Assembly (NCBI RefSeq): GCF_004331485.1
Contig: NZ_SJKD01000012.1
Span: 62,001 to 126,000 of the forward strand
From: Kribbella capetownensis
Lineage (GTDB): Bacteria > Actinomycetota > Actinomycetes > Propionibacteriales > Kribbellaceae
Length of the DNA: 64,000 nucleotides
Reading direction: 5' to 3'
The notes under the pieces are model-generated. The model saw only the letters and a list, made by a program, of their open reading frames with translations. It ran no database searches and was not told where the DNA came from. The number at the start of each line of letters is the position of its first letter. Position 1 is the stretch's first letter. This document shows, piece by piece, positions 621 through 57,259 of this stretch. Both the position numbers and the translations under genes were made by a program.

Positions 621-1652
621 ATGCTGAGCATGACGACGGCGAGTGCGGGAGAGGGCCCACGCCACGGGGTCCGGCGGCAGCCGTCGGCTGAGCAGCTGCG
701 GCTGCTCACCAAGGTCGCGAAGCTGTACCACGAGCAGGGCGTACGGCAGCCGCAGATCGCGGCGCAGCTGCACATCTCCCAGCCGCGGGTGTCCCGGCTG
801 CTGAAGCAGGCCGTGGTGGCCGGCATCGTTCGTACGGTCGTGATCCCGCCGAGCGGCGTACACACCGAGCTCGAGGACGCGATCGAGCAGCGGTACGGGG
901 TGCGTGAGGTGATCGTGGTCGACGCCAGCGGTGAGGACGACGCGCACATCATCCCGGCGCTCGGCGCGGCCGCGTCGGTGTACCTGGAGACCACGCTGAC
1001 CGGCGGTGACCGGATCGGCATCTCGTCCTGGAGTTCGACCTTGCTTGCCACGGTCGAGTCGATGACACCGCGGCCGACGCAGGTGGCCGAGGAGGTCGTT
1101 CAAGTCCTCGGTGGCGTCGGCAACCCGGCCGCTCAGGCCCGCGCGGCCCGCCTGGTCGGCCGGCTGGCGGATCTCACCGGCGCGTCGCCTGTACTGCTGC
1201 CAGTGCCCGGTCTGGTCGGCAGTGTGAGCGCGAAGCGCACGCTGATGAAGGACCCCGTGGTCACCGAGGTGATGGACGCGTGGTCGCGGCTCACGTTGCT
1301 CCTGGTCGGGATCGGCAGCCTCGAGCCGTCTCCGCTGCTGAAGGAGAGCGGTAACACGATGACCGCCGAGGACCAGAAGGTGCTGCGGGACCAGGACGCG
1401 GTCGGCGACATCTGTTTGCGGTTCTTCGACGAGGCCGGCAAACCGGTCCGCTCCGAGCTCGACCAACGAGTGCTCGGTCTGTCGGCCGCGCAGGTCCGCA
1501 GCGACGACCTCCGCAGCGTCGGCGTCGCGGGCGGCATGCGCAAGTACGCCGCCATCCGCGCGGCGCTGCTCGGTGGCTGGGTCGACGTACTCATCACCGA
1601 TCGCTCGGTCGCCGAGCGGCTGGCTAACGAGCATCGACCCACACCGTCATAG
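621..1652 (+). CDS. SorC-family sugar-binding transcriptional regulator
   Basis: The protein has an N-terminal helix-turn-helix (YHEQGVRQPQIAAQLHISQP, then RVSRLLKQA) followed by a roughly 250-residue SorC-type effector domain that normally binds a phosphorylated sugar. It is about 343 residues, normal for the family. ATG 621 is chosen; ATG 630 is equally possible because neither has a clear ribosome-binding site. It is divergent from the GH2 gene with a 23-bp gap and is therefore its likely regulator. Its last 29 bp overlap the convergent GH127 gene. Family assignment is secure; target and ligand are inferred from position only. Confidence 0.85.
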   Translation: MLSMTTASAGEGPRHGVRRQPSAEQLRLLTKVAKLYHEQGVRQPQIAAQLHISQPRVSRLLKQAVVAGIVRTVVIPPSGVHTELEDAIEQRYGVREVIVVDASGEDDAHIIPALGAAASVYLETTLTGGDRIGISSWSSTLLATVESMTPRPTQVAEEVVQVLGGVGNPAAQARAARLVGRLADLTGASPVLLPVPGLVGSVSAKRTLMKDPVVTEVMDAWSRLTLLLVGIGSLEPSPLLKESGNTMTAEDQKVLRDQDAVGDICLRFFDEAGKPVRSELDQRVLGLSAAQVRSDDLRSVGVAGGMRKYAAIRAALLGGWVDVLITDRSVAERLANEHRPTPS

Positions 1653-3375
1653 GACCGACCGTCCGATTCGCCCAGGCGTAGTAGGGGATCGCGGTCAACG
1701 TCTGCCCGTCCCGCGCCGGAACCTCGACCGTCGTCACTCCACCCAGGAGCTCAGGCCGCTCCCGCGAGACCAGTTCGCCCGCCACCACAGCCGTCTCATC
1801 CAGTACGACGTCCTGGTCGACCTGCTCGAAGCAGTACACCAACGGCCCACGCTCGATCGCCACACAGCCACGCACCGAGTCGATCCGATCGTCAGGCTCG
1901 GTACGTCGTGCCTGCACCGGCAACTCCAGCACCACCTGGTCGCCAACCGACCACTGCCGTCGTAGCGGACCGGCAACGCCGGCACCATCTGCCCAGGCAG
2001 GGATGCGCAGACCCAGCGTCCACGGCTCCGACGGCGTCTCGGTGATCGTCACCGTCACCCGGCCGTGCCACGGATAGCGCGTCGCCACCTCGAACCCGAC
2101 ACGTCCAAGGGGCAACTCAGCGGTCACCACAGCCGGTGCGTAGAGGTGCACCTGAACACCTTCGTCGTCCGACGTCGCCACGAGCTGGTCGAGTGAGGAG
2201 AGCGTGCGCATCACGTTCGGCGGGCAGCACGCCGTCCCGTACCACGGCTGCCTCCCCGCGACCGCGGAGCGCTGGTCGTCGGCGTACGCATGCTGCCGCA
2301 CCTTCAACGTGTTGACGTAGAAGAACCTGTCACCGCTCAGCGAGACCCCGGAGATCACCGCGTTGTACAGCGTCCGCTCGATCAGGTCGGCGTACTTGCT
2401 GTCGCCCGTCGCGAGCAGCAATCGCCAACTCCACTGCACGCTGGCGATGGCCGCGCAGGTCTCGCAGTACGCCGTGTCCGGTGGCAGCTCGTACGTGTCG
2501 CCGAACGCCTCGCCGTACCACCGGGAGCCGACGCCACCGGTCAAGTACGTCTGACTGTCGGCCATCGTCTGCCACGTCTCCCGCAGCGCATCGAGCAGCT
2601 CGGCGTCGCCGGTCTCGACCGCGACATCGGTCGCCCCGGACGCCAGATACAACGCCCGCACCGCGTGACCAGCAAGCGTCCGCACCTCACGCACCGGCAG
2701 ATGATCCTGGAAGTACGCCGGTCCGTGATGTCCCGGTGGCATCAGCAACCCACGCCCCCGCGCCTCGACGAAGTACGACGCCAGCTCCAGGTACGACGCC
2801 GTCCCGGTCTCGCGGTAGAGGTCGACCAACGCCATCTCGATCAGCGGATGACCGTCGACGCCTTCCATCCGCCCAGGACCGAAGGTCTTGCAGAGCAGAT
2901 CGGCGAACTTGCACGCGACATCGAGCAACGTGCGATCGCCGGTAGCGCGAGACTGGGCGACCGCAGCCTGCAGCAGGTGGCCCGCGCAGTACAGCTCATG
3001 CCCCTTCTCCAGATCTCCGAACCGCTGGCCGTCGAGTGCTAGTCGCGTGTGGGTGTTCAGGTAGCCGTCCGGTTCCTGTGCCTGCGCGACCAGTGCACTT
3101 GCTGTCGTCTGCCAGGAGGCGAGATCGTCGGCCGGCTCCCGCGCCTGTTCCCAGGCGACCGCCTCGAGCCACTTGTAGACGTCGGTGTCCGCGAAGAGCT
3201 TGCCGACGAACCCGGGCTCTTCACCGGCCACGCGACGGAAGTTGCCGAGGGTCCCCGCCTCCTCCAGGCGCGATCCCGCGGCGGGAATCGTCGACGTCCG
3301 GTTGGTCTGCTGGCGCTCCCGCCAGAAGCCGCTGGTGATCCTGGTGGCACCGAGGGGGAGTGGGCGAAGGGGCAT
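1624..3375 (-). CDS. GH127 beta-L-arabinofuranosidase
   Basis: A 583-residue member of glycoside hydrolase family 127 (former DUF1680; HypBA1-like), which releases L-arabinofuranose from plant and hydroxyproline-linked arabinan chains. The zinc-thiolate active site of the family is visible: CETC with Glu305 and Cys307, and the adjacent pair Cys383-Cys384 in TACCPPNVM, in the same order and nearly the same spacing as in HypBA1 (Glu338, Cys340, Cys417, Cys418). No signal peptide is present, so it is cytoplasmic. The start ATG at 3373-3375 gives MPLRPLPLGATRITSGFW, which matches the usual beginning; an upstream in-frame ATG at 3441 lies among operator sites and is less likely. Two LacI-type operators lie just upstream. 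Confidence 0.92.
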   Translation of the reverse strand: MPLRPLPLGATRITSGFWRERQQTNRTSTIPAAGSRLEEAGTLGNFRRVAGEEPGFVGKLFADTDVYKWLEAVAWEQAREPADDLASWQTTASALVAQAQEPDGYLNTHTRLALDGQRFGDLEKGHELYCAGHLLQAAVAQSRATGDRTLLDVACKFADLLCKTFGPGRMEGVDGHPLIEMALVDLYRETGTASYLELASYFVEARGRGLLMPPGHHGPAYFQDHLPVREVRTLAGHAVRALYLASGATDVAVETGDAELLDALRETWQTMADSQTYLTGGVGSRWYGEAFGDTYELPPDTAYCETCAAIASVQWSWRLLLATGDSKYADLIERTLYNAVISGVSLSGDRFFYVNTLKVRQHAYADDQRSAVAGRQPWYGTACCPPNVMRTLSSLDQLVATSDDEGVQVHLYAPAVVTAELPLGRVGFEVATRYPWHGRVTVTITETPSEPWTLGLRIPAWADGAGVAGPLRRQWSVGDQVVLELPVQARRTEPDDRIDSVRGCVAIERGPLVYCFEQVDQDVVLDETAVVAGELVSRERPELLGGVTTVEVPARDGQTLTAIPYYAWANRTVGPMTVWVDAR

Positions 3376-3420
3376 GGCTGACAGGAAACCATCCGGGCGA
3401 AGCCTCCGGCAAGACTTCGG

Positions 3421-3434
3421 TGCAAACGATTGCC
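3421..3434. promoter_or_regulatory. LacI-type operator, class 1 (TGCAAACGATTGCC)
   Basis: Near-palindrome with central CG, one base from the TGCAAACGATTGCA sites found at 3453, 41173 and 43800. Its centre is 32 bp from the next copy, about three helical turns, and it covers the expected start point of the leftward GH127 promoter. Confidence 0.6.
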
Positions 3435-3439
3435 ACCGC

Positions 3440-3467
3440 ACGATCCCGTGACTGCAAACGATTGCAA
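3440..3467 (-). promoter_or_regulatory. Possible promoter of the GH127 gene
   Basis: Reading leftward, TTGCAA (3462-3467) and GATCGT (3440-3445) are 16 bp apart. The -35 falls in the operator at 3453 and the start point would fall in the operator at 3421. Both hexamers are weak, so this is a suggestion. Confidence 0.3.
3453..3466. promoter_or_regulatory. LacI-type operator, class 1 (TGCAAACGATTGCA)
   Basis: Fourteen-base near-palindrome with a central CG, identical to the sites at 41173 and 43800. It lies between the divergent GH127 gene and the pectate lyase operon. Confidence 0.7.
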
Positions 3468-20636: not shown

Positions 20637-20666
20637 TTGAGAACTGTCGGTGGGCGTGGTTAGTGT
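20637..20666 (+). promoter_or_regulatory. Possible promoter of the HNH nuclease gene
   Basis: TTGAGA (20637-20642), 18 bp, TAGTGT (20661-20666). The ATG at 20674 is 7 nt after the -10, which would give a leaderless transcript. Confidence 0.4.
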
Positions 20667-20673
20667 TGTCGGT

Positions 20674-23259
20674 ATGGAACTTCTGGGCGAGCGGCCGATC
20701 TGGTCGATGAGCGGCAGCGAGATGCTGACCACTCTCGACCACCTCGAGGCCGACCTCGCCCGCCGCCAGACCTACCGCCTCCAACTCATCGCCGCCCTGG
20801 ACACCACCGGCCACGCAGCAGACCTCGGCGCCCACGACACCGCCCAACTCCTGGCCTTCCGCTACCGCCTCGACCGCTCCACGGCGTACCGCGACGTCCG
20901 CCTGGCCCGAGCCCTCCCCAAATACCCCACCGTCACGACAGCGCTGACAGATCCTGTCGACACCCGGGTGCCAGCCGCCGACCCTGACCCCGCTGGCAAG
21001 GCCGAAGGCGACAGCACAGTCCCGATTACCGAGTCCGGCACCGACCCCGACCGCGCCGACGCCGACCACACGGGCGCCGACCACGCGGATGCGGACCGCG
21101 CGGATGCCGACCACGCGGATGCCGACCACGCGGATGCCGACCACGCGGATGCCGACCACACGGGCGCCGGTGTTGGCGAAGGCGAGCGCGACGGTGACCG
21201 GAGAGGCGAGGGCGCTGCTGCCTGGCTTCTCCGCCCAGCCCAGGCCGAAGCCATCGTCTCCGCCCTGGAACGCGTCCCCACCACGGTCCCGGTCGAAGAC
21301 CTCGAGGTCGCCGAACAACAACTCGTCAACCTCGCCCGCCACCTCACCCCCAGCGAACTCCGCAAAGCCGGCAAGCAGATCCGCGACCTCCTCGACACCG
21401 ACGGCCCCGAACCCGACGAACACAAGGCCTACGCCCGCGAATCCCTCGCCCTCATCACCGCCGAGAACGGCGTCAAGTTCCGCGGCTACCTGGCCAACGA
21501 GAACGCCGAACTCCTCCGCGCCCTCATCCACACCGGCGCCCGCCCCCACAAAACCCTCGACGGCGAACTAGACCCGCGCCCCCGCGAAAAGCGCCAAGCC
21601 GACGCCCTAACCACAGCCCTAACCCTCGCCGCCACCGCCACAGACACCAACCGCACCACCACAGACACCAACCGCACCACCACCCCCCCCCCGACACGCC
21701 CCACCCCCACCACCACCGACACCCCCAACACCCCCCTCGCCACCACCAACCTGGCCGACAACCCCGATGCCCCCACTGCCGAACCCGGCACGGCCGCAGC
21801 CACCACCGGCAACCCCAACACCCCTCTCGCCGCCGACGACCCAGATGCCACCGCAGCCGAACCCAGCACCGCCGCTCCCACCACCGGCAACCCCAACACC
21901 ACCCTGGCCGCCGACAACCCCGACGCCACCCTCGCCGCCAACAACCCAGATGCCACCACAGCCGAAGCCGGCACCGCCGCACCCACCACCGGTCGTCCGG
22001 AGGGCACGGCCGGCGCGGAGGGAGCGACTGCTGCTGGTGCATCGGCCGCGGATGCTGGGGTTGTTGCTGGAGGCAGGTCGCCGGCTTGGGTGCCGGGTTT
22101 CGGAGCGAAGGCGAACATCACCGTCACGATCGACCTGGAGGACCTGAAGTCGGCCGCCGCGGACGCCACCGGCGGGCTCGTCTACGGCGACAACCTCTCC
22201 GCCGCTGCGATCAGACGCCTGGCCTGCGACGCGAACATCATCCCGCTCGTCCTCGGCTCCAACTCCGAACCCCTGGACGTCGGCAGATCCGAACGCCTAG
22301 TCACCCGTGCCATGCGCCGCGCTCTCAACGCCCGCGACAAAGGCTGCGTCGTCTGCGGCGCCCCACCAGTCCAGTGCGACGCCCACCACCTACGCTCCTG
22401 GATCGACGGCGGCCCAACCGCCATCTGGAACCTCGTCCTGCTCTGCCGCCGCCACCACATCGACCTCCACGCCGGCCACTGGACCATCACCATCACCAAC
22501 GGCAAAGTCCACGTATACCGCCCCACCTGGGCTGACCCACCACCCCCAACCCCCAAACACCACTCAACAGCACCCCCCAACCCCCGCACCGACTCCTCCC
22601 GCCGACGCCCACCCGCCGCCCGCCCGCCCGACGAGCGCGCACCCGACGAGCGCCTGCTTGACGAGCGTCCGCCTGACGAGCGCGCACTCGACGGGCGCCT
22701 GCTTGACGAGCGCCCACCTGAGGAGCGTGCACCTGAGGAGCGTGCACCCGACGAGCGTCCGTATGACGAGCGTCCACCTGAGGATCTCGCGCTTGACGAG
22801 CGCCCACCTGAGGAGCGTGCACCCGACGAGCGTCCGTCTGACGAGCGCCCGCCCGACGAACTGCGGGCAGGCTGGCCCCAGCCGGAAGAACTACGGTCAG
22901 ATCGGTCCGAGCTAGATGGGCCCTGGTCAGGTGACCCTTGGCCGGATCGAGTCCGATCGGACGGGCTGTGGGCAGAAGGATTGCGGCCCGACGATGCCGC
23001 GCGCATGGACAGTGGGCGATCACAAGGTCGACGTACGGCTGCCCCGACAGGAGTGACTGCCTGCGCGGTCAATCGCCCCGCCGATGCCGCGGCTCGCCGA
23101 GAAGCCGCACGCCAGGCGATCTGGGGCGACACCTCGACGAGCAGTTCGGGCGTCCCCACCGGTCCCCGCGGCACCTCGCGCCCATCCGCGGAACCCGCCC
23201 ATCATGATCCGTGGGCCGAACCCACACGCCCGACAGCCGTCCGCCCGCCCAGAAAGTAG
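20674..23259 (+). CDS. DUF222/HNH endonuclease (13E12-type) with repeat-rich insertions
   Basis: An 861-residue protein. Residues 1-100 and about 190-310 form the DUF222 region. The HNH nuclease site is CVVCGAPPVQCDAHHLRSW (from residue 558) with LCRRHH completing the zinc/HNH fold. Relatives are multicopy in actinobacteria and usually 400-500 residues. The extra length here comes from three low-complexity segments: an Ala-Asp-His repeat (about residues 130-165), a Thr/Pro/Ala-rich stretch (about 315-450), and a C-terminal DERPP/EERAP repeat (about 650-730). ATG 20674 is chosen over GTG 20650 because of the promoter position. It interrupts the glycan genes and has no obvious role in them; cellular role of the family is unclear. 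Confidence 0.88.
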   Translation: MELLGERPIWSMSGSEMLTTLDHLEADLARRQTYRLQLIAALDTTGHAADLGAHDTAQLLAFRYRLDRSTAYRDVRLARALPKYPTVTTALTDPVDTRVPAADPDPAGKAEGDSTVPITESGTDPDRADADHTGADHADADRADADHADADHADADHADADHTGAGVGEGERDGDRRGEGAAAWLLRPAQAEAIVSALERVPTTVPVEDLEVAEQQLVNLARHLTPSELRKAGKQIRDLLDTDGPEPDEHKAYARESLALITAENGVKFRGYLANENAELLRALIHTGARPHKTLDGELDPRPREKRQADALTTALTLAATATDTNRTTTDTNRTTTPPPTRPTPTTTDTPNTPLATTNLADNPDAPTAEPGTAAATTGNPNTPLAADDPDATAAEPSTAAPTTGNPNTTLAADNPDATLAANNPDATTAEAGTAAPTTGRPEGTAGAEGATAAGASAADAGVVAGGRSPAWVPGFGAKANITVTIDLEDLKSAAADATGGLVYGDNLSAAAIRRLACDANIIPLVLGSNSEPLDVGRSERLVTRAMRRALNARDKGCVVCGAPPVQCDAHHLRSWIDGGPTAIWNLVLLCRRHHIDLHAGHWTITITNGKVHVYRPTWADPPPPTPKHHSTAPPNPRTDSSRRRPPAARPPDERAPDERLLDERPPDERALDGRLLDERPPEERAPEERAPDERPYDERPPEDLALDERPPEERAPDERPSDERPPDELRAGWPQPEELRSDRSELDGPWSGDPWPDRVRSDGLWAEGLRPDDAARMDSGRSQGRRTAAPTGVTACAVNRPADAAARREAARQAIWGDTSTSSSGVPTGPRGTSRPSAEPAHHDPWAEPTRPTAVRPPRK
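21061..21170. repeat. 15-bp tandem repeats inside the HNH gene
   Basis: Repeated unit GCCGACCACGCGGAT, encoding ADHAD, with several exact and a few variant copies (ACACGGGC ends, GCGGACCGC). The unit is a multiple of three, so copy changes keep the frame. Confidence 0.85.
22621..22863. repeat. 15-bp degenerate tandem repeats in the 3' part of the HNH gene
   Basis: About sixteen copies of a unit like CGCCCGCCTGACGAG that encode alternating RPPDE, RAPDE, RLLDE and RPPEE pentapeptides, giving a highly charged tail. Frame is preserved. Confidence 0.85.
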
Positions 23260-23781: not shown

Positions 23782-25233
23782 TCAGATGTGGCGTAGAGAG
23801 TCGAAGAGGTTTGGGTCGCCGATCTGGCCGCCTTTGAGGAGGAAGTGGAGTCCGTTGAGCTGCGGATCCGCGGCGATCGCGGTGCAGAGGGCGAGCCCAT
23901 GGCTTAGGTCGGACGGGGTGGTGGGGAACGGTTCCAGGCCGGTGAGCCCGAGCTCGCGGAGTATGCGTCCGGATGTGTCGCCGCCGGCTACCACGACCCG
24001 TCGTACCTGCGTGGTGTGGACGACTTGCCGCACGACTGCGGCCAGGTCTTTGCTGAAGGCACCGAGCAGCTCGCCCGTGGCTTGGCCTGTCGCCTCGCCT
24101 GTGTGCACCACGACCCCAGGTGCGCCAGCGTTCAGTGCGCGAACTGCTTCGGTCGCGACGGCGGGTGAGCCGTCGGACACCGCGGCCGGTGGGTAGGTGA
24201 GCGGCAGTGAACGCCAGCCGGCCGCAACCGCGTGGGCGATCTGTTCGGCGGTTCGAGGGGACTGGCTGCCGGATACGACGAGGACTTGGTTTGCGGGCGG
24301 AGTGGTCGTGAGTTGCGGCGGTGCGAGAACGGATGCTGCGGCGTTCAGGTCGGGCCGGTCGCAGGGGAGGGCTGGACTCGCCTCGGTGTAGTTCGACGTC
24401 TCGCCGGTCGGTGTTGCGAGTACGACGTCGGCGTCTCGTCGTTCACGATCAACGAGGTCAGCGTGACCAAGTCGTTCCATGCCAGCGCGGTCGTGAGTGG
24501 AGGGCGGGTCGGTGAGGGCCAGAGCGAGCGCGCGGGAGAGGCCGCCGGAGCCTATGGCGAACGCGGGGGTGGTGGGTGGGGTGAGGATTGTGCGGGCGAT
24601 GGATTGGAGGTCGGCGTCGGTGAGGGCGTCCAGGACGAGGGCGTCGTACGTCGAGTGGGTGTCGTGGGTTGGGAGGTCGGGGTAGGACGGTAGGTGGAGG
24701 GCGCCGATTTGGAGGTTGGTTTGGTTCGCCAGGTGTACGCGGAGGTCGGATTCGTGCATGGGGGTGGCGGGGTGGGAGGACATAGTGGGTTGGCGGTCGA
24801 GTCGGTGGGTGGTGCCTGCTTCGGCGGCGAAGTGGTGGCTGAAGACTGTGTAGCGGCCAAGGTCTGGTTGTGCGATGAGGATGGGTACGACGGCTGGGCC
24901 GAAGATCGAGCGGCCGACTTCCAGGGCGCGGCCGATGCTGCCGACGGTGGGGGAGGAGTCGGCGGTCGAGCAGACCTTGTACTGGACGAAGCGTGGACCC
25001 AGGTTGCGCAGGGCCTGGAGGATCGGGCGGATCTCGGCTTCCTGTTCGTCGGGCGGCAATGAGCGTGCGATCCCAGCCACCCCGATCACGTCGTACTGCC
25101 GTGCCAATGCCTGGAGCTCGTCCCACGCAGGCATCGTGACCAGGAGGACCCCGCGAAAGCCAAGCCGGGTGAACTGGGCCAGCGCATCCGTCGACCCAGT
25201 GAAGTCGTCTCCGTAGAACGCAACCTCAACCAC
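23782..25233 (-). CDS. DUF1537 four-carbon/branched acid-sugar kinase
   Basis: A 483-residue member of the DUF1537 kinase family (OtnK, DenK, OiaK relatives), which phosphorylate sugar acids such as threonate, erythronate or 3-oxo-isoapionate. The N-terminal substrate-binding motif FYGDDFTGSTD and the C-terminal nucleotide-binding motif VVAGGDTSGRILRELGL with LKGGQIGDPNLF are clear. It begins with GTG at 25231-25233, overlapping the RuBisCO-like gene by 8 nt, so the two are probably translationally coupled. That pairing is the one known from D-apiose catabolism (OiaK with OiaX), and suggests the same use here, though substrate cannot be read from sequence. The stretch 24500-24900 is strongly C-rich on the coding strand. 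Confidence 0.9.
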   Translation of the reverse strand: MVEVAFYGDDFTGSTDALAQFTRLGFRGVLLVTMPAWDELQALARQYDVIGVAGIARSLPPDEQEAEIRPILQALRNLGPRFVQYKVCSTADSSPTVGSIGRALEVGRSIFGPAVVPILIAQPDLGRYTVFSHHFAAEAGTTHRLDRQPTMSSHPATPMHESDLRVHLANQTNLQIGALHLPSYPDLPTHDTHSTYDALVLDALTDADLQSIARTILTPPTTPAFAIGSGGLSRALALALTDPPSTHDRAGMERLGHADLVDRERRDADVVLATPTGETSNYTEASPALPCDRPDLNAAASVLAPPQLTTTPPANQVLVVSGSQSPRTAEQIAHAVAAGWRSLPLTYPPAAVSDGSPAVATEAVRALNAGAPGVVVHTGEATGQATGELLGAFSKDLAAVVRQVVHTTQVRRVVVAGGDTSGRILRELGLTGLEPFPTTPSDLSHGLALCTAIAADPQLNGLHFLLKGGQIGDPNLFDSLRHI

Positions 25234-26620
25234 GGCCGCCGCCCCCGTCCGCGCCTGGCGGGCCGAAGGTTTCCAGGGCTTGTTGGAGGGCGGGGTTCTG
25301 TTGGGCGGTTTCGGTCAGGGTGCGGCCGGAGGTGGTGGATTGCCAGGCAGCTCGCATGGCGGTGACGCCGGCCGCGGGGCCGTCGGGGTGGCCGTGGATG
25401 CCGCCACCGGCGAGGACGAGGAGGTCTGTGGTGGCGGTTCGGCGGTAGGTTTCGGGGGCTAGGCCAGGCGTCTGGCCTGATGAGAGGACCGGCAGGGTTT
25501 CGTAGCCGCCCAGGAGCGGTTCGCGGACTGCGGCGATTGAGCGGAGGACTTCGTCGTCTGTTTCGTAGAACTTGTTGGACAGGCCGTTGGTGTGGAGGTG
25601 ATCCGCGCCGGCCAGGCGGGCGAGTTTGGACCAGGCGACGAAGTCGATGCCGAGTTGTGGTGCTCGCGTGAAGACACCGGTCATGGCACGGTGGGCATGG
25701 ATGGGGAGGGCGCAGCGCTCGCGGAGCCAGGCGAGGCCGGCCAGGCCGATGAGGTTGATGCAGGCCATCACACAGGTCCCGCCAGCGGCGTGGACCAGGT
25801 CGTGGTTGGCGGCCATTCGGTCCAGGTCGTCGGTGATGTTGAAGGCGTACATCGGGCGTCGTCCGGTGCGCGCGGCAACCTTGTCCAGTTCCTCGGTGAC
25901 CACCCTGACTCGGTCGGCGAGTGGTGAGTGGGGTGGGTTGCCCATCAGTTCGTCGTCTTTGATGAAGTCGATGCCGGCCTCGGCGAGTTCGCGGACGAGG
26001 ATCCGCAGTTCCTCGGGTGGCAGTCCGATGCTTGGCTTCACGATGGTGCCGAGCAGTACGCCGTCCGGTCGGTCGAGCAGGCGCCGGGTCCCGGTGATGC
26101 CGTACTGCGGACCTGGGTAGCGTTCCGCGAACGCGTCAGGCAAGGACAGGTCCAGTAGTCGGATGCCGGCGAGTTGGCGGAGTTCGAAGAGGTTTCCGGC
26201 GACTGCGGCGAGCAGGTTCGGCAGGGATGGGCCGAAGTTGTCCAAGCCGAAGGCGATCCGCACCAGCCCGCTCCGCCGCCGCGCCCCCGCCGGCCGGATC
26301 GCACCTGGCAGGTCTGCGCCGGCCACAGCAGCCTCGGGCAGATCTGCGCCGGCCAGAGCAGCCTCGGGCAGATCTGCGCCGGCCAGAGCAGCGTCGGGCA
26401 GATCTGCGCCGGCCAGAGCAGCGTCGGGCAGATCGGCAGTCGAGGTAGTCGGCTCGATCGCGACTACTCGGGCTGCGAAGCGGTCGCGGAGTTCGGGTGT
26501 CTCGCGGGCGACTGCCACGAATGTGCCGGTTGACTGTTCGCCGGCGATCACCTCCGCGGCCTGCTCCAACGGGAGGTAGGAATCCACCCGGTACGTCGCG
26601 ACGACCTCGGCGCCGCTCAT
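25226..26620 (-). CDS. RuBisCO-like protein (RuBisCO large-chain family, form IV) with repeat insertion
   Basis: A 464-residue RuBisCO-family protein. Lys195 (GTIVKPSIGL), Lys221, Asp223 and Glu224 (FIKDDE) correspond to plant RuBisCO Lys175, Lys201, Asp203 and Glu204, with the same 26-residue spacing, so the carbamate/metal site is intact. The C-terminal phosphate site AGGGIHGHPDGPAAG is also present. Such proteins work as isomerases or decarboxylases on phosphorylated keto sugars; OiaX, decarboxylating 3-oxo-isoapionate 4-phosphate, pairs with a DUF1537 kinase as here. Unusual is a run of 10-residue repeats (ADLPxAALAG) at residues 62-106 between two strands of the N-terminal domain. ATG 26618-26620 overlaps the dehydrogenase stop (ATGA). 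Confidence 0.9.
   Translation of the reverse strand: MSGAEVVATYRVDSYLPLEQAAEVIAGEQSTGTFVAVARETPELRDRFAARVVAIEPTTSTADLPDAALAGADLPDAALAGADLPEAALAGADLPEAAVAGADLPGAIRPAGARRRSGLVRIAFGLDNFGPSLPNLLAAVAGNLFELRQLAGIRLLDLSLPDAFAERYPGPQYGITGTRRLLDRPDGVLLGTIVKPSIGLPPEELRILVRELAEAGIDFIKDDELMGNPPHSPLADRVRVVTEELDKVAARTGRRPMYAFNITDDLDRMAANHDLVHAAGGTCVMACINLIGLAGLAWLRERCALPIHAHRAMTGVFTRAPQLGIDFVAWSKLARLAGADHLHTNGLSNKFYETDDEVLRSIAAVREPLLGGYETLPVLSSGQTPGLAPETYRRTATTDLLVLAGGGIHGHPDGPAAGVTAMRAAWQSTTSGRTLTETAQQNPALQQALETFGPPGADGGGGRG
26303..26437. repeat. 30-bp tandem repeat inside the RuBisCO-like gene
   Basis: Four and a half in-frame copies of a 30-bp unit containing GATCTGCGCCGGCCAGAGCA followed by GCCTCGGGCA (plus strand). 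The central copies differ by only one or two bases, which points to recent expansion. Confidence 0.92.
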
Positions 26621-27618
26621 CGGGTCGGGTCGATCTGGGTCTTGATGTGGTCGGAGCCGGCATCGATGGCCTCGAGTACGTCGGGCGCCTCGCCCAACCC
26701 GACCACCGACGTGATGTAGGGCCGGACGTCCAGCACACGATGGTTCACCAGCCGGGCCGCAGCAGCGAAGTCTGCCGGGGTGTAGATCGTCGACCCCTGG
26801 ATCGTCACCTCCTTCAGTACGACGGGATTCAGGTCGACCGTCAGGGCGGCACCGAACATCGGCAGCAGCACCACCTGCCCCCGCGGCCGGCACAACGCCA
26901 ATGCCTCCGCCAGACAACTCGGATGCCCGGACGCCACCACGACCACGTCGAACCCATCCCCGCCACTGACCGCGACCCCCACAGCCTCCAACTCAGCCGG
27001 ATCCACCACCGCATCAACGCCCTGCAACGCAAGGAAGTCCCGGTTGTGCTGCTTGATGTCACTCACCAGCACCGCACGAGCCCCACGTTGACGCGAAACC
27101 GCAGCCGCCAGCGCCCCGATCGCCCCACCACCGAGCACGGCGACCGCATCACCCGCCCGCACCGCGGACGTCGAACGCCACGCCACCGCGACCGGCTCGA
27201 TCATCGCGCCCTCGTCGTACCCGATGTCGTCGCTCAGCGGCACCAGCACCCGCCCGGGCGCGGCGAAGTACTCACTCAGCATCCCCGGCCAGCCACTGCC
27301 CGGGACTCGTTTGTGTACGCACAGATGTGGGTTCCCAGCCTCGCAGCGCGTGCACTCCCAGCACGACAACGCAGGCAGTACGGCGACCCGATCGCCGACG
27401 CTGAAGCGCGAGTCGCCGGACGCCACCACCTCACCGGCACCCTCATGCCCGAGCACGACAGGCGGCTTGCGGAACGGGTGATGCCCGAGCCAGGTATGCA
27501 GGTCGGACCCACATAACCCGACCGCGCGCATCCGAAGCAGCACGTCTCCACCGGCGTCCGGATCCGGCACCTCATTCACCGAGACCTGTCGCGGTGCCTC
27601 CAGTACGGCTGCCCTCAT
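26617..27618 (-). CDS. Zinc-dependent medium-chain dehydrogenase
   Basis: A 333-residue alcohol/polyol dehydrogenase. The catalytic zinc ligands lie in GLCGSDLHTW and GHEGAGEV, the structural zinc cysteines in CWECTRCEAGNPHLC, and the NAD(P)-binding glycines in VAVLGGGAIGALAAA. It resembles sorbitol and threonine dehydrogenases. AGGAG stands 7 nt before ATG 27616-27618, which decides the start. It is the first gene of the operon with the RuBisCO-like protein and kinase and would supply the keto acid or keto sugar used by them. Which sugar is oxidised is not shown by sequence. Confidence 0.9.
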   Translation of the reverse strand: MRAAVLEAPRQVSVNEVPDPDAGGDVLLRMRAVGLCGSDLHTWLGHHPFRKPPVVLGHEGAGEVVASGDSRFSVGDRVAVLPALSCWECTRCEAGNPHLCVHKRVPGSGWPGMLSEYFAAPGRVLVPLSDDIGYDEGAMIEPVAVAWRSTSAVRAGDAVAVLGGGAIGALAAAVSRQRGARAVLVSDIKQHNRDFLALQGVDAVVDPAELEAVGVAVSGGDGFDVVVVASGHPSCLAEALALCRPRGQVVLLPMFGAALTVDLNPVVLKEVTIQGSTIYTPADFAAAARLVNHRVLDVRPYITSVVGLGEAPDVLEAIDAGSDHIKTQIDPTR

Positions 27619-27676
27619 CAGCATTCTCCTTCGATCGGGTCCCGCCAGTCTCCGCCGGAAAACCTCAAGAAAACAA

Positions 27677-27688
27677 GGCCGATCGGCC
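27677..27688. promoter_or_regulatory. 12-bp perfect palindrome GGCCGATCGGCC
   Basis: Lies in the 123-bp gap between the divergent dehydrogenase operon and GH127-like gene, so it may be an operator for one of them. It differs from both LacI-type operator classes in the window. Confidence 0.35.
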
Positions 27689-27705
27689 AATCTGTGGATA
27701 GCCCG

Positions 27706-27734
27706 TTGACATCACCCCGCCTGGGGGTAAAGGT
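27706..27734 (+). promoter_or_regulatory. Promoter of the GH127-like/GH78 operon
   Basis: TTGACA (27706-27711), 17 bp, AAAGGT (27729-27734). The -10 lies within a class 2 operator, and ATG 27742 follows so closely that the transcript is probably leaderless. Confidence 0.55.
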
Positions 27735-27739
27735 TTTCC
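27726..27739. promoter_or_regulatory. LacI-type operator, class 2 (GGTAAAGGTTTTCC)
   Basis: Near-palindrome covering the -10 region of the preceding promoter. It matches sites at 33195 and 33274 beside the lacI gene and the perfect inverted repeat at 41268. Confidence 0.6.
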
Positions 27740-27741
27740 TC

Positions 27742-29478
27742 ATGGCGACGATCCCGGCGACCCTGCTACTCGAGGAACGGGCCGCGCTGGCGATGAACGC
27801 GGTGACCGGTCTGGCCGACGAGGACCTGGACGGCATCCCGTTCTTCAGCGCGAACCTGCTGGCCCGTCCGGCCCGGCTGGACCACGGCGACTGGGACTAC
27901 GGCTCCAGCCACGGCCGGCTGACCGACGCGACCGTCCTGGCCCGCCAGATGACCGGCGGCCAAGCCGGCAACCTCGGCGGCAACCCCCACTGGGACCCAC
28001 ACTGGGACGCAGTCGCCGACCGCTACCGGAAGACCCTCTTCGCACTGCTAGGTGACGATGGACTGACCTACCGCCGCGTCCACCCCCGCGGCCACTGGCT
28101 GTCGAACGCCAATCTGATCGACCAGCGCGCCACTCTGCTCGCTCTGACGACCACAGTCGTCGCCACCGGCGATCCCGAAGCACAGAAAGCAGCAGACGCA
28201 CAGGTCGCGGCGCTGAAGCGGATCGCGATCAAGGAGCGCGACGTCTGGTTCTACCCGGCCTCGGAGTACACCACCGAAGGGTGGCCCTCCTCGAACGCCG
28301 TCGACCTGCACCTTGCGCCCGACCCCGCATCGTTCTCCGGCCGCCTGATCATGCCGCTGCTGCGGTACCACCAGGCGACCGGCAACAGCGACGCTCTCGA
28401 GCTCTGCGAGTGGTTCGCCCGCCTGATCATCGACAAGAGCGGCGTGTTCCTCCCAGATGGCAGCTTCAACCCGGCCCGCGCGTACCGCAGCGGCCACTTC
28501 CACACCCGCGTCGGCACGCTGGAAGGTCTCGCCAGACTCGCCAGGCACACCGGCGACCACGGCCTGACCGAGTTCACGAGGCGCAGCTACGACTGGGTGC
28601 TCACCCAGGCCACCAGGTTCGGCTGGACGCCGGGTGACCTGGCCGACCAGCGCTACGAGCACGAGACCTGTTCCCTCGTCGACCTCATCGGACTGGGTAC
28701 GACGCTCGCCGGCAACGGACTGACGTCGTACTGGTCGGTGGTGGAGCGGTTCGTCCGCAACCACCTGGCAGCGTCGCAGTTGCGCGACGTGAGCTGGGTG
28801 GAGTCCGCTCCGGACCGCTCAGGTGACGAGCCGGGCTGGCGGACGTACGTCGATGTGGGCGGGCGGGTCCTGGGTGCGTTCTGCGGGTACGGCGCTCCGA
28901 ACGACTACGTGTCCGACGTACCACTCGGCCGGGGCCACACCAACGACGTACAGGCGTGCTGCGTCGGCTCCGGCGTTCGCGGACTCTTCTGGGCCTGGAA
29001 CAGCATCATCACCGGCGACGCCGATGTGACCCGCGTCAACCTGCTCCTGACCCGCGCGCACCACGCCGTCGACGTCGTGAGCCACCTGCCGGTAGAAGGC
29101 AAGGTCGAGCTCCACATCAACGAGCCGGTGGAGGAACTGCGTGTCCGCATCCCGGAGTGGGCCGGGTACGCGCGGCTGACGCTCAACCGGGGCGACGAGA
29201 CGCGCACCGGTGCCGAGCGCATCTGGGCGCCGGACGGCTACCTCGCGATCCCGCAGCCGCAGCCGGGGGAGCGGATCACCGTGACGTTCCCGATGGTCGA
29301 GCAGAGCACCACCGAGTTTGCCGCTGGCAACGAATTCCGGACCACCTGGCGTGGCGACGACGTTGTCGCGATCGACCCGCCCGGCCGGTCCCGGCCCATG
29401 TACGGCGATCGGCCGGAACACGCCGGCGGTCTGCGCGACTACGAACTCCACCGACCCGAGACGGAGTGGTCCTGGTGA
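27742..29478 (+). CDS. GH127-like glycoside hydrolase, divergent
   Basis: A 578-residue cytoplasmic protein distantly related to GH127. The zinc-thiolate elements can be seen: HETC with Glu308 and Cys310, and Cys406-Cys407 in QACCVGSG. The spacing between the two elements is about 20 residues longer than in the canonical GH127 protein encoded at 1624-3375. Most of the rest is (alpha/alpha)6 barrel, ending in a beta domain (VRIPEWAGYARLTLNRG). A sugar other than beta-L-arabinofuranose is likely. The start ATG 27742 is fixed by the promoter just upstream. The stop overlaps the rhamnosidase GTG start (4 nt). Confidence 0.8.
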   Translation: MATIPATLLLEERAALAMNAVTGLADEDLDGIPFFSANLLARPARLDHGDWDYGSSHGRLTDATVLARQMTGGQAGNLGGNPHWDPHWDAVADRYRKTLFALLGDDGLTYRRVHPRGHWLSNANLIDQRATLLALTTTVVATGDPEAQKAADAQVAALKRIAIKERDVWFYPASEYTTEGWPSSNAVDLHLAPDPASFSGRLIMPLLRYHQATGNSDALELCEWFARLIIDKSGVFLPDGSFNPARAYRSGHFHTRVGTLEGLARLARHTGDHGLTEFTRRSYDWVLTQATRFGWTPGDLADQRYEHETCSLVDLIGLGTTLAGNGLTSYWSVVERFVRNHLAASQLRDVSWVESAPDRSGDEPGWRTYVDVGGRVLGAFCGYGAPNDYVSDVPLGRGHTNDVQACCVGSGVRGLFWAWNSIITGDADVTRVNLLLTRAHHAVDVVSHLPVEGKVELHINEPVEELRVRIPEWAGYARLTLNRGDETRTGAERIWAPDGYLAIPQPQPGERITVTFPMVEQSTTEFAAGNEFRTTWRGDDVVAIDPPGRSRPMYGDRPEHAGGLRDYELHRPETEWSW

Positions 29479-49051: not shown

Positions 49052-50098
49052 ATGCGATCTGTGCGCAGAGTCGCGGCAGACTCGATCACCCAAGCCCTCC
49101 GCACCGGTTCGCCGCCGGTGGTACTGGTGCGAACCGTCACGGGCTTGGAGCAACTAGCGGCCGAGGAACTGGCCGCGGCGAACCACCGCGTGATCGACCT
49201 GTCCAAACGACAACTCATCGTCGAACCCACCGCGGCGACGATCATCACCAGCCCACCACACCTCGCCGACGACCTGTTCGTCGTCCAGGCCGCCGCTCCC
49301 GATCCGGGGCGCACCAAGCAGGAGCTGGCAGCGGCCGTCACCGAAGCCTGCGCCCAACTGAACGGTGCAGGGGACTTCGCGGTGACCGCGTCGTCCCTCG
49401 GCCGGCGCACTTACAACCGGTTCGACATCGAAGACCTGGTCGGCGGCCTCATCCAGCAGCGTTCCGGCGCCAGGTACCACTCGCGCCGCACCGGCGAGGC
49501 TCCACCGATCGACCGCGCGGAGTGGCGGGTCATCCTCGACGGCAAGACGCTCTGGATCGGCGTCCGGCCGTACGACGTCCCGCTGCACCGCCGCGTCTGG
49601 CGACGGCAGACGGTGACCGGCAGCCTGCATCCGCCGGTGGCCGCCGCGATGGCCCGGCTGGCACGCATCGCTCCGGGTCACAGAGTCCTTGATCCGTTCT
49701 GCGGTGCAGGGACGCTGCTTCTCGAAGCACAGGCTGTCGAGCCGGCAGCGACGTACGTCGGGATCGATCAGGAGCCGATCGCCGTCGCGGCCGCGCAGCT
49801 GAACTCACCGCGCGAGTCGTCCATCGTCTGGCGCACCGGCGACGCGGCGCGACTCGACGGTCCGGTGGATCGCATCCTGACGAATCCACCCTGGGACGTC
49901 CGGCTGGGGATCGGCAGCTTCACGCCGTACCTGGCCCAATGGCGCGAGGTCCTCGCACCGGACGGGCTCGTGGTCGCGATCCTCAATCACCAACAGGCGG
50001 CCACAATGATCGGGGATGCTGCCTGGCGGGTCAGTGACGTGTACGACGTCGCAGTCGCCGGGCAGCATCCCCGGATCGTGGTGGCTAGCGCGAGGTGA
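49052..50098 (+). CDS. THUMP-domain RNA methyltransferase (RlmK/L, Trm14-like)
   Basis: A 348-residue protein. Residues about 25-150 form the ferredoxin/THUMP-like RNA-binding part. The C-terminal Rossmann domain has the SAM motif HRVLDPFCGAGTLLLEA and the catalytic TNPPWD, as in N2-guanine tRNA and rRNA methyltransferases (Trm11/Trm14, RlmL N-terminal half). It acts on cytoplasmic RNA, not on glycans, and stands alone among sugar genes. GGGAGA precedes ATG 49052. Its 3' end overlaps the convergent GH95-like gene by 14 bp. Target nucleotide unknown. Confidence 0.85.
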   Translation: MRSVRRVAADSITQALRTGSPPVVLVRTVTGLEQLAAEELAAANHRVIDLSKRQLIVEPTAATIITSPPHLADDLFVVQAAAPDPGRTKQELAAAVTEACAQLNGAGDFAVTASSLGRRTYNRFDIEDLVGGLIQQRSGARYHSRRTGEAPPIDRAEWRVILDGKTLWIGVRPYDVPLHRRVWRRQTVTGSLHPPVAAAMARLARIAPGHRVLDPFCGAGTLLLEAQAVEPAATYVGIDQEPIAVAAAQLNSPRESSIVWRTGDAARLDGPVDRILTNPPWDVRLGIGSFTPYLAQWREVLAPDGLVVAILNHQQAATMIGDAAWRVSDVYDVAVAGQHPRIVVASAR

Positions 50099-52841
50099 CG
50101 AAGGTGAGGTAGGTCGAGTTGCCCTTGTCAACGATTCCGGAGTTGGCCCCGAGCGCCAGTTGCCCGGCCGGTACGTCGCGCTTGAACAGGATGAGCCGTT
50201 GGTCGGTCGTGCCAACGGTCTCGCCAGTCCGAGTGAAGGAGCTGAGCCACTCCGGCCACCAGTCGCCCTCGCCCCGCGGGTCGAAGGCGACGTACACGGT
50301 GGCCGGCTGGCTCAGCTCCAGCGTGATGTAGTCCACGGGACCGGTCGACTTCGAGTCATCGTTGGCGCCCGGTACCAACGCCTGCCCAGCCAACTGCGCC
50401 GGCAGATCGGTGATCGTGTAGCTGCGATCGACATAGATCGGCGCGCCCGTCTGAGCCTTCACGAGGTTCGACAACTTCTCCGGCGTCCGCACGCTGACCA
50501 GATCGCTGGCCAGCGGCGGCTCACTCGCAGGTACGCCGAGCATCCGATTGCCGACCGTCTTCACCGCGTTGGCCGGCGCACCGGTCAACGGCACGAACCG
50601 GAACGACGAAAGCGGCACAGCCACCCGCTCCACGACGTACGACGCATGCGCCGCCACCGGCACCGTCAGGACGTCAGCAGTCGTCGGCGCCACGACAGCC
50701 CGACCGTGCTCATCGATCACGCGCACCTGCTGACCCGGCCAGGGATTGCGCACCCGAAGCGTGTCCTTGCTCCCGGCCTCGATCCCGACCAGGTTCGGCA
50801 CGCCGTCCTTCACCTCGGTGCTGATCCGGTGACCACCCTCGATCTGCACCGCCCCGGACACATCCCAGTCACTCGGCCACGCCGGCGCGACGTCGACGAC
50901 ACCGTCGTACGACTGGACCAGCGCCTCCTGCAGACCGGTGGTCACGACCCCGCCCCACTCGTTGTAGAAGCTGTGGTTCCGCACCGCCTCCTGACCCGGG
51001 CGGTGGACAGTGAAACCGTTCGGGTAGATCTGGAAGTCCGCGATCCCCTTCAACAGCAGGCGTTTCACCTCATCGGACTGCCCAAGACGCGCGGCCCACG
51101 TGGCGTCCATCCCCCAGTCCTTGTCCTGCGGGTAAACGCGCTGCCGGAACGTCGCCTGCATCAGGGCAGAGGTCTCGTCGAACAGACCCCACGGCCACAA
51201 CGCCTCCATCTCCGGGTTCTGCGTGTTGTGCGCCTCCTCATCGGTGCCGGACCACGCGAGCACCTCCTCGCCACCACGCTGCACGGTCCGGAACGGCGGC
51301 AGCTTGCCGACCGCCTCGCGCAGCTGACCGGCAAACGCATCATCGCCTCGCGCCGAGGCGAGGTCGGCGACGATCGGGAAGATCACCCGCATTCCGGCGA
51401 GGTCCGGTGTGGGGTCGTTGGTGTCCCACTGCACCTCGAGTGCATTGACGTGCTCGAGATGCAGGTAGCCGTCCTCGCCCGGTGTCAGCGCCGACAGGTA
51501 GAAGTCCGCGACCTCCCGCATCAACGGGTAGCTGCGGTTGAGCAGCGCCCGGTCGCCGGTGTAGCGGTACTGCTGCCAGATGTTGTTCACCAGCTCGGCC
51601 CCACTGCTCAGAATCCGGGTCGTGTAGTTCGGCTCGGAGGTGTTGTCACAGCCATCCGCCGTCCCGTCGTACCGCAGGAACTCGGGCACGCAGATCCCGC
51701 GGGCACCGGTCCAGTGCGTGCTGGTCCACTCCTTCATCGCCGCGGCCTGGTCGAGATAGAAGTCGAAGTACGGCGCGTTGAGATCGCCGATATCGGCACC
51801 GAGATTCGCGGACACGAGCATGCGCAGGTTGAAGTGCCAGTACGCATCCTGATCCCAGTCGGCCTGGTCCTGCGACGAGGAGAACATCCGGACCACCGCG
51901 CCATGCGTGCTCGGCACCGGGCCACGCATCGACGCGGCCATTGTGTAGAGCTGCAGTGTGCGGAGGTTCTCGACGTACTCGCCGGTGCCGTCGGCAGACG
52001 TGATCCGCATCGGCGCTGCCTTGGCCCAGAAGTCATGCCACCAGGCGAGATGGTTGCTGTGGGCCTCGACCACGGCATGGCGAGCGGCAGTCTTCACATC
52101 ACCACCCTTGTACGACGGTACGCCGACGACGAGCCGGAAGCTGCCGTCACGATTGGGCCGGAAGGTCAGCCGGACAGTCAGCGGATCGACGACGGAAGCG
52201 GACACGTCCCGAGCCCGCGCGGTTACTGCGGCAACCGCACCGGCGACACCTCCGGATGCGTCGTCTTTGAAGGTCTCCGCCAGCGCGGCGACCGCACCGG
52301 CTGCGCTGGTGGTCGGCGTACGACCCGGCCAGAGCTTGAGATCAGCAGTCTGGGTCTTGCCAGGATCGGCGCCGGTGACTTCGAGCACGAACTGATCCGC
52401 GTCGGCCCGCACGTACGAGCGGGCTGACATTCCGCCACCGCTCTGGACGAGTTGGCCGTCGTACAACGCCAGCCGGCCCTTGTAGTCGGCCGCGCGCATC
52501 AACGGATCGAGGCCGGGTACGACGAGCCGTCCGGCGGACTCGAGATCGGGGAAGGTGTCGACGCGGTTGAGCTGGGCGCTGAAGCCCTTCTCGGCCCAGA
52601 CCGCGGCGCCGAGGACGCCGTTGCCGAGCGGCATCGCCTGGTACGCACGCCAGGCAGGTCCTTCCTGGACGAGATCGGATCGGCCGACGAGACCGGCCGG
52701 GCCGGTGCGCAGGGCGCCGTCATGCCAGGCGGTGGTCGGGCTGGGTTCGGTCTGGGGGATCGGGCCGGCCGCGGCGACCGAACCGGCGCTGGTGGCGAGC
52801 AGGGTGATGAGTATGGGCAGGGTCCATCGACCAACAGGCAT
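50085..52841 (-). CDS. Secreted GH95-like (alpha/alpha)6 protein
   Basis: A 918-residue protein with a Sec-type signal (WTLPILITLLATSAGSVAAAG). The N-terminal beta region (MPLGNGVLGAAVWAEKG) resembles GH95 and DUF5703 proteins. The central helical barrel includes DQADWDQDAYWHFNLRM and NALEVQWDTNDPTPDLAGM. The last 200 residues form an extra beta domain. The canonical GH95 NLQGIW motif is not found at the expected place, so the activity may differ from alpha-L-fucosidase or alpha-L-galactosidase. It follows the GH95 gene after 31 nt, as last gene of the GntR operon. Confidence 0.72.
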   Translation of the reverse strand: MPVGRWTLPILITLLATSAGSVAAAGPIPQTEPSPTTAWHDGALRTGPAGLVGRSDLVQEGPAWRAYQAMPLGNGVLGAAVWAEKGFSAQLNRVDTFPDLESAGRLVVPGLDPLMRAADYKGRLALYDGQLVQSGGGMSARSYVRADADQFVLEVTGADPGKTQTADLKLWPGRTPTTSAAGAVAALAETFKDDASGGVAGAVAAVTARARDVSASVVDPLTVRLTFRPNRDGSFRLVVGVPSYKGGDVKTAARHAVVEAHSNHLAWWHDFWAKAAPMRITSADGTGEYVENLRTLQLYTMAASMRGPVPSTHGAVVRMFSSSQDQADWDQDAYWHFNLRMLVSANLGADIGDLNAPYFDFYLDQAAAMKEWTSTHWTGARGICVPEFLRYDGTADGCDNTSEPNYTTRILSSGAELVNNIWQQYRYTGDRALLNRSYPLMREVADFYLSALTPGEDGYLHLEHVNALEVQWDTNDPTPDLAGMRVIFPIVADLASARGDDAFAGQLREAVGKLPPFRTVQRGGEEVLAWSGTDEEAHNTQNPEMEALWPWGLFDETSALMQATFRQRVYPQDKDWGMDATWAARLGQSDEVKRLLLKGIADFQIYPNGFTVHRPGQEAVRNHSFYNEWGGVVTTGLQEALVQSYDGVVDVAPAWPSDWDVSGAVQIEGGHRISTEVKDGVPNLVGIEAGSKDTLRVRNPWPGQQVRVIDEHGRAVVAPTTADVLTVPVAAHASYVVERVAVPLSSFRFVPLTGAPANAVKTVGNRMLGVPASEPPLASDLVSVRTPEKLSNLVKAQTGAPIYVDRSYTITDLPAQLAGQALVPGANDDSKSTGPVDYITLELSQPATVYVAFDPRGEGDWWPEWLSSFTRTGETVGTTDQRLILFKRDVPAGQLALGANSGIVDKGNSTYLTFVTSR

Positions 52842-52872
52842 GCTGGAACCTTTCGGGGGCGGTGGCGAGAGG

Positions 52873-57171: not shown

Positions 57172-57259
57172 GGCTGCATGGTGACCCCGCTCACGTGGTT
57201 CTGTCGACCCCATATGGCACGGACTTCTGACTCGGAACGTCCAGTTTGCCGTTTATACG

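Follow-up and report, generated by a model that had tools for sequence, protein, structure and literature searches.

D-apiose catabolism through the kinase OiaK and the RuBisCO-like protein (RLP) OiaX is reportedly the subject of Carter et al. 2018, Nat Chem Biol. The 3-oxo-isoapionate-4-phosphate transcarboxylase/hydrolase is named OiaT. RLPs either decarboxylate 3-oxo-isoapionate 4-phosphate or cleave it by transcarboxylation/hydrolysis, the RLP of Xanthobacter autotrophicus having the 3-oxo-isoapionate-4-phosphate transcarboxylase/hydrolase activity (PMC6302742). We analyzed a stretch of 64,000 nucleotides from Kribbella capetownensis (contig NZ_SJKD01000012.1, hereafter the window), which harbors an operon encoding a zinc-dependent dehydrogenase (ADH), an RLP and a DUF1537 kinase. 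This operon represents a new, widespread variant of the OiaK/OiaX-type module, with a tie to rhamnogalacturonan II (RG-II) and a probable one to aceric acid. Good evidence backs both the module and its connection with RG-II, whereas we infer the substrate.

The operon is related to the OiaX and OiaK families

The three genes lie on the minus strand (Table 1) and overlap, as the preliminary description had claimed: the RLP gene begins within the last 4 bp of the ADH gene (ATGA), and the kinase gene within the last 8 bp of the RLP gene. Their proposed identities are backed by Pfam domains, namely ADH_N and ADH_zinc_N for the ADH, RuBisCO_large (PF00016, 219.7 bits) and RuBisCO_large_N (PF02788, 51.9 bits) for the RLP, and the two DUF1537 halves SBD_N (164.8 bits) and NBD_C (69.1 bits), both over the Pfam cut-offs, for the kinase. 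The best NCBIfam match of the ADH is L-threonine 3-dehydrogenase, at 164 bits against a cut-off of 380. With both large-chain domains and the carbamylation/metal site K-D-D-E, the RLP falls within the RuBisCO superfamily. Residues Lys195, Lys221, Asp223 and Glu224 had been numbered correctly and are all present, together with His310, His343 and Lys350. We take K195/K221/D223/E224/H310/H343/K350 to be RuBisCO K175/K201/D203/E204/H294/H327/K334. The position of RuBisCO Lys177 is occupied by Ser197.

Among 18950 curated NCBIfam families, the nearest are OiaX for the RLP and OiaK for the kinase, so that the relation to these proteins proposed earlier stands. The RLP reaches 405 bits on the OiaX model (NF042437) and the kinase 267 bits on the OiaK model (NF042436), both below the cut-off of 700. 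The annotated OiaX of locus L098 scores 781 bits; its adjoining kinase also misses the OiaK cut-off (461 bits), which indicates that this cut-off is strict. In the 8.8-Mb genome that contains the window, the OiaX model matches at one place only, as two stretches of one gene.

Related loci comprise the best 80 of at least 549 confirmed named loci and six annotated plasmid regions, which together with the window and the Kribbella loci form a clustering set of 102 loci. A kinase homologue is found in 97 of these 102 RLP loci, some of which are duplicates or clipped by contig ends, and the RLP-kinase arrangement is thus not a matter of chance. Among the best loci listed, the named near relatives of the window operon are Kribbella species.

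In an RLP tree of 82 rows, the window RLP falls in a 44-row clade with a support of 100/100. The annotated oiaX rows L098 and L103 lie outside this clade, on a branch of 1.28. Inside it, the window belongs to a 12-row Kribbella clade whose sister is Streptomyces, with an ADH and a divergent glycosidase-like gene here called GH16c. Kribbella and Streptomyces (14 rows) join six loci at 99/94, five of which have GH127, ApnO-like or racemase-like partners; a 23-row, mainly Microbacteriaceae clade then joins at 99/96, and L079 completes the 44-row clade at 100/100. The active-site residues differ as well. The window RLP has N-I-T and, in the motif preceding the Lys334-type lysine, H-L-H (H341/H343), whereas L098 and L103 have G-I-S and Q-x-Q. 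The scores, the separate clade and these residues speak against membership in the OiaX and OiaK families, and, with no ApnO found in the window genome, the label of a canonical apiose operon was rejected.

Several loci are outside the tree. L003, L005, L007, L008, L010, L012 and L015 were excluded by hand because each duplicates the window or a named locus, and L036, L041, L045 and L078 because they are short or broken. The RLP open reading frame (ORF) of nine others was lost in the automatic ORF choice (L020, L034, L035, L038, L044, L054, L058, L061 and L064); seven of these have a gene of neighbour cluster 3, L020 has one of cluster 16, and L061 has neither. Partner labels were assigned by hand, outside the tree, for L006, L009, L011, L013, L014, L016-L020, L022 and L023, and no ADH was found in L006, L013 and L014.

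A GH127-type partner accompanies the RLP clade

Clusters 3 and 16 hold GH127-type genes. In 40 of the 44 clade loci, such a gene is no more than three called genes away from the RLP (35 from neighbour clustering, three from genome positions and two from separately examined Kribbella loci). Outside the clade, this is the case in 0 of 38 rows. The four exceptions are L033, where the contig end clips the locus, and L048, L057 and L079, which have none. In 22 rows of the 23-row sub-clade, the GH127 gene lies immediately upstream of the RLP gene and shares its strand. The GH127 of a Microbacterium locus (L043) matches PDB entry 5mqo with an E value of 3.9e-183, the next chain being at 1.6e-103, and 5mqo is titled Glycoside hydrolase BT_1003. 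According to two papers, BT_1003 is the aceric acid hydrolase of RG-II (PMC10850190, PMC5698469). Five RLP-linked GH127 proteins were scanned, and the only family that they matched was the NCBIfam aceric acid hydrolase (NF049879, 636-786 bits).

A Croceibacterium plasmid (L099, NZ_CP156083.1, 10184-14540) is a separate case of similar linkage in Alphaproteobacteria, and one of the 38 rows outside the clade: a gene annotated 'beta-L-arabinofuranosidase domain-containing', from another cluster, overlaps the RLP gene, which in turn is followed by the DUF1537 kinase gene.

The loci can be described by their partners. Classical apiose loci combine the RLP and kinase with ApnO (cluster 10), ApnL (cluster 13; 818 bits in L103 against a cut-off of 750) and a Gfo/Idh enzyme (cluster 17). 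The mainly Microbacteriaceae loci have GH127, RLP and kinase in a row, many with a racemase-like gene, an ABC importer and other glycosidases. In Kribbella and Streptomyces, GH16c is divergent from the RLP and kinase genes, with the ADH present or not. Five Bacillota loci (L065, L067, L068, L069 and L081) encode an ADH, an RLP, a kinase and an OtnC/FucA-like aldolase, and three of the five have a TRAP transporter and a GntR regulator.

These Bacillota loci bear on a further explanation, under which the substrate of the module is a different branched sugar acid, for instance a 2-C-hydroxymethyl aldonate (hamamelonate/2-carboxyarabinitol): the ADH would oxidize the hydroxyl beside the branched carbon, the kinase would phosphorylate the product and the RLP would decarboxylate it. 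They combine the same three functions with an aldolase and have no cluster-3 or cluster-16 glycosidase; moreover, the window ADH resembles threonine 3-dehydrogenase, an enzyme that yields a beta-keto acid. However, the Bacillota dehydrogenases are just 33-35% identical to the window ADH, their RLPs belong to a different clade, and in Actinobacteria the loci are linked to pectin/RG-II glycosidases. We regard this explanation as improbable for the window operon, while the pathway encoded by the Bacillota loci themselves is perhaps one for a different branched sugar acid, for example hamamelonate (2-carboxyarabinitol).

A cluster-12 FAD/Fe-S oxidase gene occurs in 16 loci. It was considered as support by way of a 2-hydroxy-acid product and was not used, since oxidases of this kind usually act on D acids, whereas the lactate expected from L-xylo aceric acid would be the L form. 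In two Kribbella loci with an aceric-hydrolase-like GH127, a 471-residue protein is encoded before an ABC importer (L104:10961-12376 and L105:11474-12889); the L104 copy has no NCBIfam match.

Co-occurrence in Kribbella genomes

The RLP is present in 15 of 38 Kribbella genomes. GH16c occurs in 13 Kribbella genomes, all among these 15, and in the remaining two (G002 and G032) the kinase gene is followed by one for an aceric-hydrolase-like GH127, at 626 and 636 bits; the next best GH127 on the aceric acid hydrolase model in any of the 38 genomes scores 457 bits. One or the other glycosidase is therefore found in 15/15 RLP-bearing and 0/23 RLP-less genomes. Among 394 genomes sampled from the class, the RLP was found in 12 (E ≤ 1e-60) and GH16c in two (E ≤ 1e-15), both of which bear the RLP.

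It could be argued that the operon is a general sugar-acid salvage set that lies in a pectin island by chance and has no tie to a sugar released by a GH127, since RG-II/pectin islands are large and gather many carbohydrate genes. The GH127-type partner in 40/44 clade loci, in 15/15 RLP-bearing Kribbella genomes and in 0/23 of the others, as well as its place directly upstream in 22/23 sub-clade rows, makes this very improbable.

The ADH (E ≤ 1e-60) is found in 9 of the 38 Kribbella genomes, every one of them RLP-bearing. An Asp/Glu-racemase-like protein with at least 59% identity is also found in nine, again all RLP-bearing, and is encoded away from the RLP in seven; two further homologues, at 41-42%, occur in G024, which has no RLP, and in G036, which has one. 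The ADH or the racemase-like protein is present in 15/15 RLP-bearing genomes and in 0/23 of the others, three of the former having both. Since the six RLP-bearing genomes without the ADH all carry the racemase-like protein, this distribution suggests that the two are alternative entries to one pathway. Across all rows of the racemase-like cluster 4 (e.g. L025:3687-4355 and L102:10658-11317), the only common Cys is that of the motif T/S-C-S-S/T. Ordinary Asp/Glu racemases use two cysteines; the racemase-like protein is possibly an isomerase.

Around the unlinked racemase-like gene in six GH16c-bearing Kribbella genomes (L110-L115), the neighbors named by eye include transporters, regulators and, in five of the six, a sulfatase-like gene, and no further nameable pathway enzyme was seen. 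The set covers six of seven such genomes (all but G021), and its control is L116, a homologue of about 40% from a genome that lacks the RLP. The idea that the racemase-like gene never occurs with ApnO was refuted: the two are not found together in any of the first 102 loci, but L104 and L105 carry both.

GH16c as a candidate remote GH127/GH146-type enzyme

In the window, the glycosidase-like gene GH16c is divergent from the operon. Its profile aligns with that of GH127 with an hhalign probability of 95.6% and an E value of 1.1e-8. Up to an E value of 10, its sole PDB profile match is 5opj, at the Cys-Cys motif (E 0.002), which is titled beta-L-arabinofuranosidase; 6yqh and 8qf8, which share its sequence, carry the title GH146. 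E308, C310, C406 and C407 of GH16c (E-x-C and C-C) are invariant with GH127 in a joint alignment of 11 rows, and we take these Glu-x-Cys and Cys-Cys residues to be the GH127 catalytic/zinc motif. Foldseek, applied to a first GH16c model (pLDDT 50.9), returned only GH127/GH146 proteins as its top 21 chains, with TM-scores of 0.37-0.43. We treat GH16c as a remote GH127/GH146-type enzyme, an assignment with moderate support.

The divergent promoter region shared by GH16c and the operon is well kept across the eight Kribbella sequences aligned. It contains an inverted repeat with the halves GGAAAACCT and AGGTTTTCC, spaced by 65 bases. Four other Kribbella sequences have GGTAAACC as the first half, and three of these have GGTTTACT as the second.

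Aceric acid as the candidate substrate

We take 3-oxo-isoapionate to be HOCH2-CO-C(OH)(COOH)-CH2OH and aceric acid to be O=CH-CHOH-C(OH)(COOH)-CHOH-CH3. Simple arithmetic on these structures gives C5H8O6 for 3-oxo-isoapionic acid and C6H10O6 for aceric acid; the formulae differ by CH2, and the ketose of aceric acid is therefore the OiaK substrate plus CH2, OiaK being named 3-oxo-isoapionate kinase in NCBIfam. The ketose form of aceric acid could thus be the substrate of the kinase and the RLP. The RG-II literature names aceric acid as 3-C-carboxy-5-deoxy-L-xylose (PMC5698469) and describes RG-II depolymerisation in detail, including the release of aceric acid by a known hydrolase (PMC5698469, PMC10850190). 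Among the open-licence literature matches listed, no description was seen of the catabolism of free aceric acid or of a link between an RLP and aceric acid.

Tentatively, and at close to an even chance, we place the operon at the intracellular end of a locus for RG-II degradation, where its role would be the breakdown of a branched sugar acid, aceric acid being the most likely one. The following scheme is one whose every reaction we infer, beside a gene order, protein families, residues and linkage that are observed. First, a GH127-type glycosidase would free aceric acid, probably in the cytoplasm, as no signal peptide is apparent by eye; this enzyme would be the BT_1003-like GH127 in the mainly Microbacteriaceae loci and probably GH16c in the window. 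Second, the aldose would be converted to the ketose HOCH2-CO-C(OH)(COOH)-CHOH-CH3. In the window, a reductase would reduce the aldehyde and the zinc-dependent dehydrogenase would then re-oxidize the product, as for xylose; the zinc enzyme fits the oxidizing half of this step because it is sorbitol/threonine-dehydrogenase-like. Elsewhere, the Asp/Glu-racemase-like protein may serve as an isomerase. Third, the DUF1537 kinase would phosphorylate the terminal CH2OH. Finally, the RLP would break the beta-keto acid in the manner of OiaX/OiaT: it may decarboxylate it to CO2 and a 5-deoxypentulose 1-phosphate, from which dihydroxyacetone phosphate (DHAP) and acetaldehyde would arise, or it may act by transcarboxylation and hydrolysis to give 3-phosphoglycerate and lactate. 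We lean slightly to the latter because the histidines are kept and because no cluster-22 aldolase was found in the fetched stretches of the 44-row clade loci. As a whole, a catabolic pathway for aceric acid, among the strangest of plant cell-wall sugars, in which phosphorylation of the ketose precedes its cleavage by RuBisCO-type chemistry, possibly directly into 3-phosphoglycerate and lactate, with an NAD-dependent dehydrogenase and an Asp/Glu-racemase-fold protein as alternative entries, is put forward with reserve, as possible rather than probable.

Several observations weigh against aceric acid. The RLP-linked GH127 proteins scored reach 626-786 bits, under the NF049879 cut-off of 950, so that their specificity is a prediction. 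No aceric-hydrolase-like GH127 is present in the window genome, whose two GH127 proteins score 418 and 356 bits. GH16c has no Pfam or NCBIfam match, with none to the aceric acid hydrolase model at E ≤ 0.01, and its relation to GH127 is remote (95.6% probability, one weak PDB profile match and a low-confidence model); VIA-align, applied to a second GH16c model (pLDDT 57.6), listed in its top 50 only other alpha/alpha-barrel-type chains and no GH127/GH146. The second step also demands a reductase. The Kribbella genomes are kin, and a Fisher test on their counts overstates independence. An ApnO-like gene adjoins the RLP in two Kribbella loci, which suits an apionate-like acid better, and weak ApnL-like proteins are encoded in three Microbacterium loci, the two that were scored reaching 202 and 241 of 750 bits.

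The preliminary description had instead proposed an RG-II branched-sugar pathway for apiose. The operon would then degrade D-apiose by an altered route, with the zinc-dependent dehydrogenase replacing the usual oxidation enzymes and the kinase and RLP acting on 3-oxo-isoapionate and its 4-phosphate. OiaK and OiaX as nearest curated families, the presence of apiose in RG-II too, an Apiosidase-like Pfam domain encoded in the window (51.7 bits, cut-off 26.5) and the ApnO-like gene beside the RLP and kinase in the two Kribbella loci are consistent with this route. However, no ApnO homologue was found in the window genome with either a Kribbella ApnO-like query (E ≤ 1e-8) or a Pararhizobium query (E ≤ 1e-5); an ApnO homologue is found in 2 of the 38 Kribbella genomes and is 39% identical to the Pararhizobium protein. 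The ApnO-like proteins of two Kribbella loci and one Jiangella locus are only 38-42% identical to those of L098 and L088, while the remaining members of the cluster reach 45-73%. A search for the ApnL lactonase gave no match in the window genome, the control genomes being likewise silent. Furthermore, the window 'apiosidase' has 4n0r as its sole strong PDB match, and the type of glycosidase that adjoins the operon is GH127, either of the aceric-hydrolase type or a remote relative, and not an apiosidase. The tie to RG-II and pectin thus held and apiose as the substrate was weakened, so that the earlier reading was partly right in kind and probably wrong in substrate. We regard D-apiose as unlikely, and aceric acid appears the more likely substrate on the basis of the genes and their neighbors.

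If aceric acid is indeed the substrate, RuBisCO-like chemistry would gain a natural substrate one CH2 above the known one. A widespread, mostly actinobacterial operon, whose proteins currently carry no annotation beyond 'RuBisCO large subunit C-terminal-like' and 'four-carbon acid sugar kinase family', would also get a testable substrate.

Features of the operon and surroundings of the window

The RLP gene contains a tandem repeat (Table 1), overlooked in the preliminary description, that encodes ten-residue units of the ADLPxAALAG type in a loop of the N-terminal domain. Few species show this expansion, other Kribbella RLPs being without it or expanded differently; K. pratensis (L023, same in L005) and L004 have different repeat units in the same loop. 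The loop seems prone to slippage within a catalytic protein. A Pfam Pentapeptide match in the RLP was attributed to composition and to the species-level expansion of this linker, and a pentapeptide-repeat fusion was rejected as a domain.

Table 1. Coordinates of the operon, the divergent gene and associated elements in the window.
Feature	Position	Strand	Evidence or remarks
Zn-dependent medium-chain dehydrogenase (ADH), threonine/sorbitol-dehydrogenase-like, first operon gene	26617..27618	-	Pfam, NCBIfam
RuBisCO-like protein (RLP), 464 aa	25226..26620	-	ATG at 26620, TGA at 25226
DUF1537 (four-carbon acid sugar) kinase, OiaK-like	23782..25233	-	GTG start at 25233
30-bp tandem repeat, 4.3 copies, inside the RLP gene	26307..26434	-	Tandem Repeats Finder
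Shared divergent promoter region	27619..27741	.	9-bp inverted repeat 27657-27665 / 27731-27739
GH16c (cluster 16), glycosidase-like, divergent from the operon	27742..29478 (ORF from 27694)	+	Putative remote GH127/GH146-type

The earlier claim that the neighboring genes dismantle pectin is borne out by the content of the window, which encodes a GH127, four GH28, a GH78, a GH42, a GH2 and two GH95-type proteins, as well as a pectinesterase and GDSL esterase protein, ABC solute-binding proteins and LacI and GntR regulators. The window GH127 (1624-3441) was considered as an aceric acid hydrolase and rejected, as its nearest structure is the arabinofuranosidase 4qjy, with 418 bits versus 257 for 5mqo. 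The regions 50085-57213 and 62280-63074 hold the two GH95-type genes together with those for an RraA-like aldolase, an amidohydrolase and an HTH/GntR regulator, and are probably a stretch for fucose (RG-II fucosyl) utilization. Between a GH28 gene and the operon, the gene at 20650-23259 encodes what seems to be an HNH motif as well as long repeats rich in Asp/His and in Pro/Asp/Glu, and by eye looks like a repeat-rich DUF222/HNH-type protein.

Comparison with known systems

Four described systems or proteins can be set beside the module. BT_1003 is the best solved relative of the GH127 encoded directly upstream of the RLP and kinase in L043, whereas the window has instead the remote GH127/GH146-like GH16c, which is without a match to the family model. 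The best solved relative of the window RLP is the Rubisco-like protein 3nwr (345 bits), and the H-x-H...K and K-D-D-E motifs are intact in both. They differ at the Lys177 place, where 3nwr has N and the window RLP S, and in the repeat insertion of the window RLP in its N-terminal domain. Because the window RLP keeps RuBisCO-like histidines, OiaT could be a model for its mechanism. Finally, the window operon differs from the OiaK/OiaX D-apiose system in its zinc-dependent dehydrogenase and in a genome where no ApnO was found, and shares with it the RLP gene followed directly by a DUF1537 kinase gene, in the context of an RG-II sugar.

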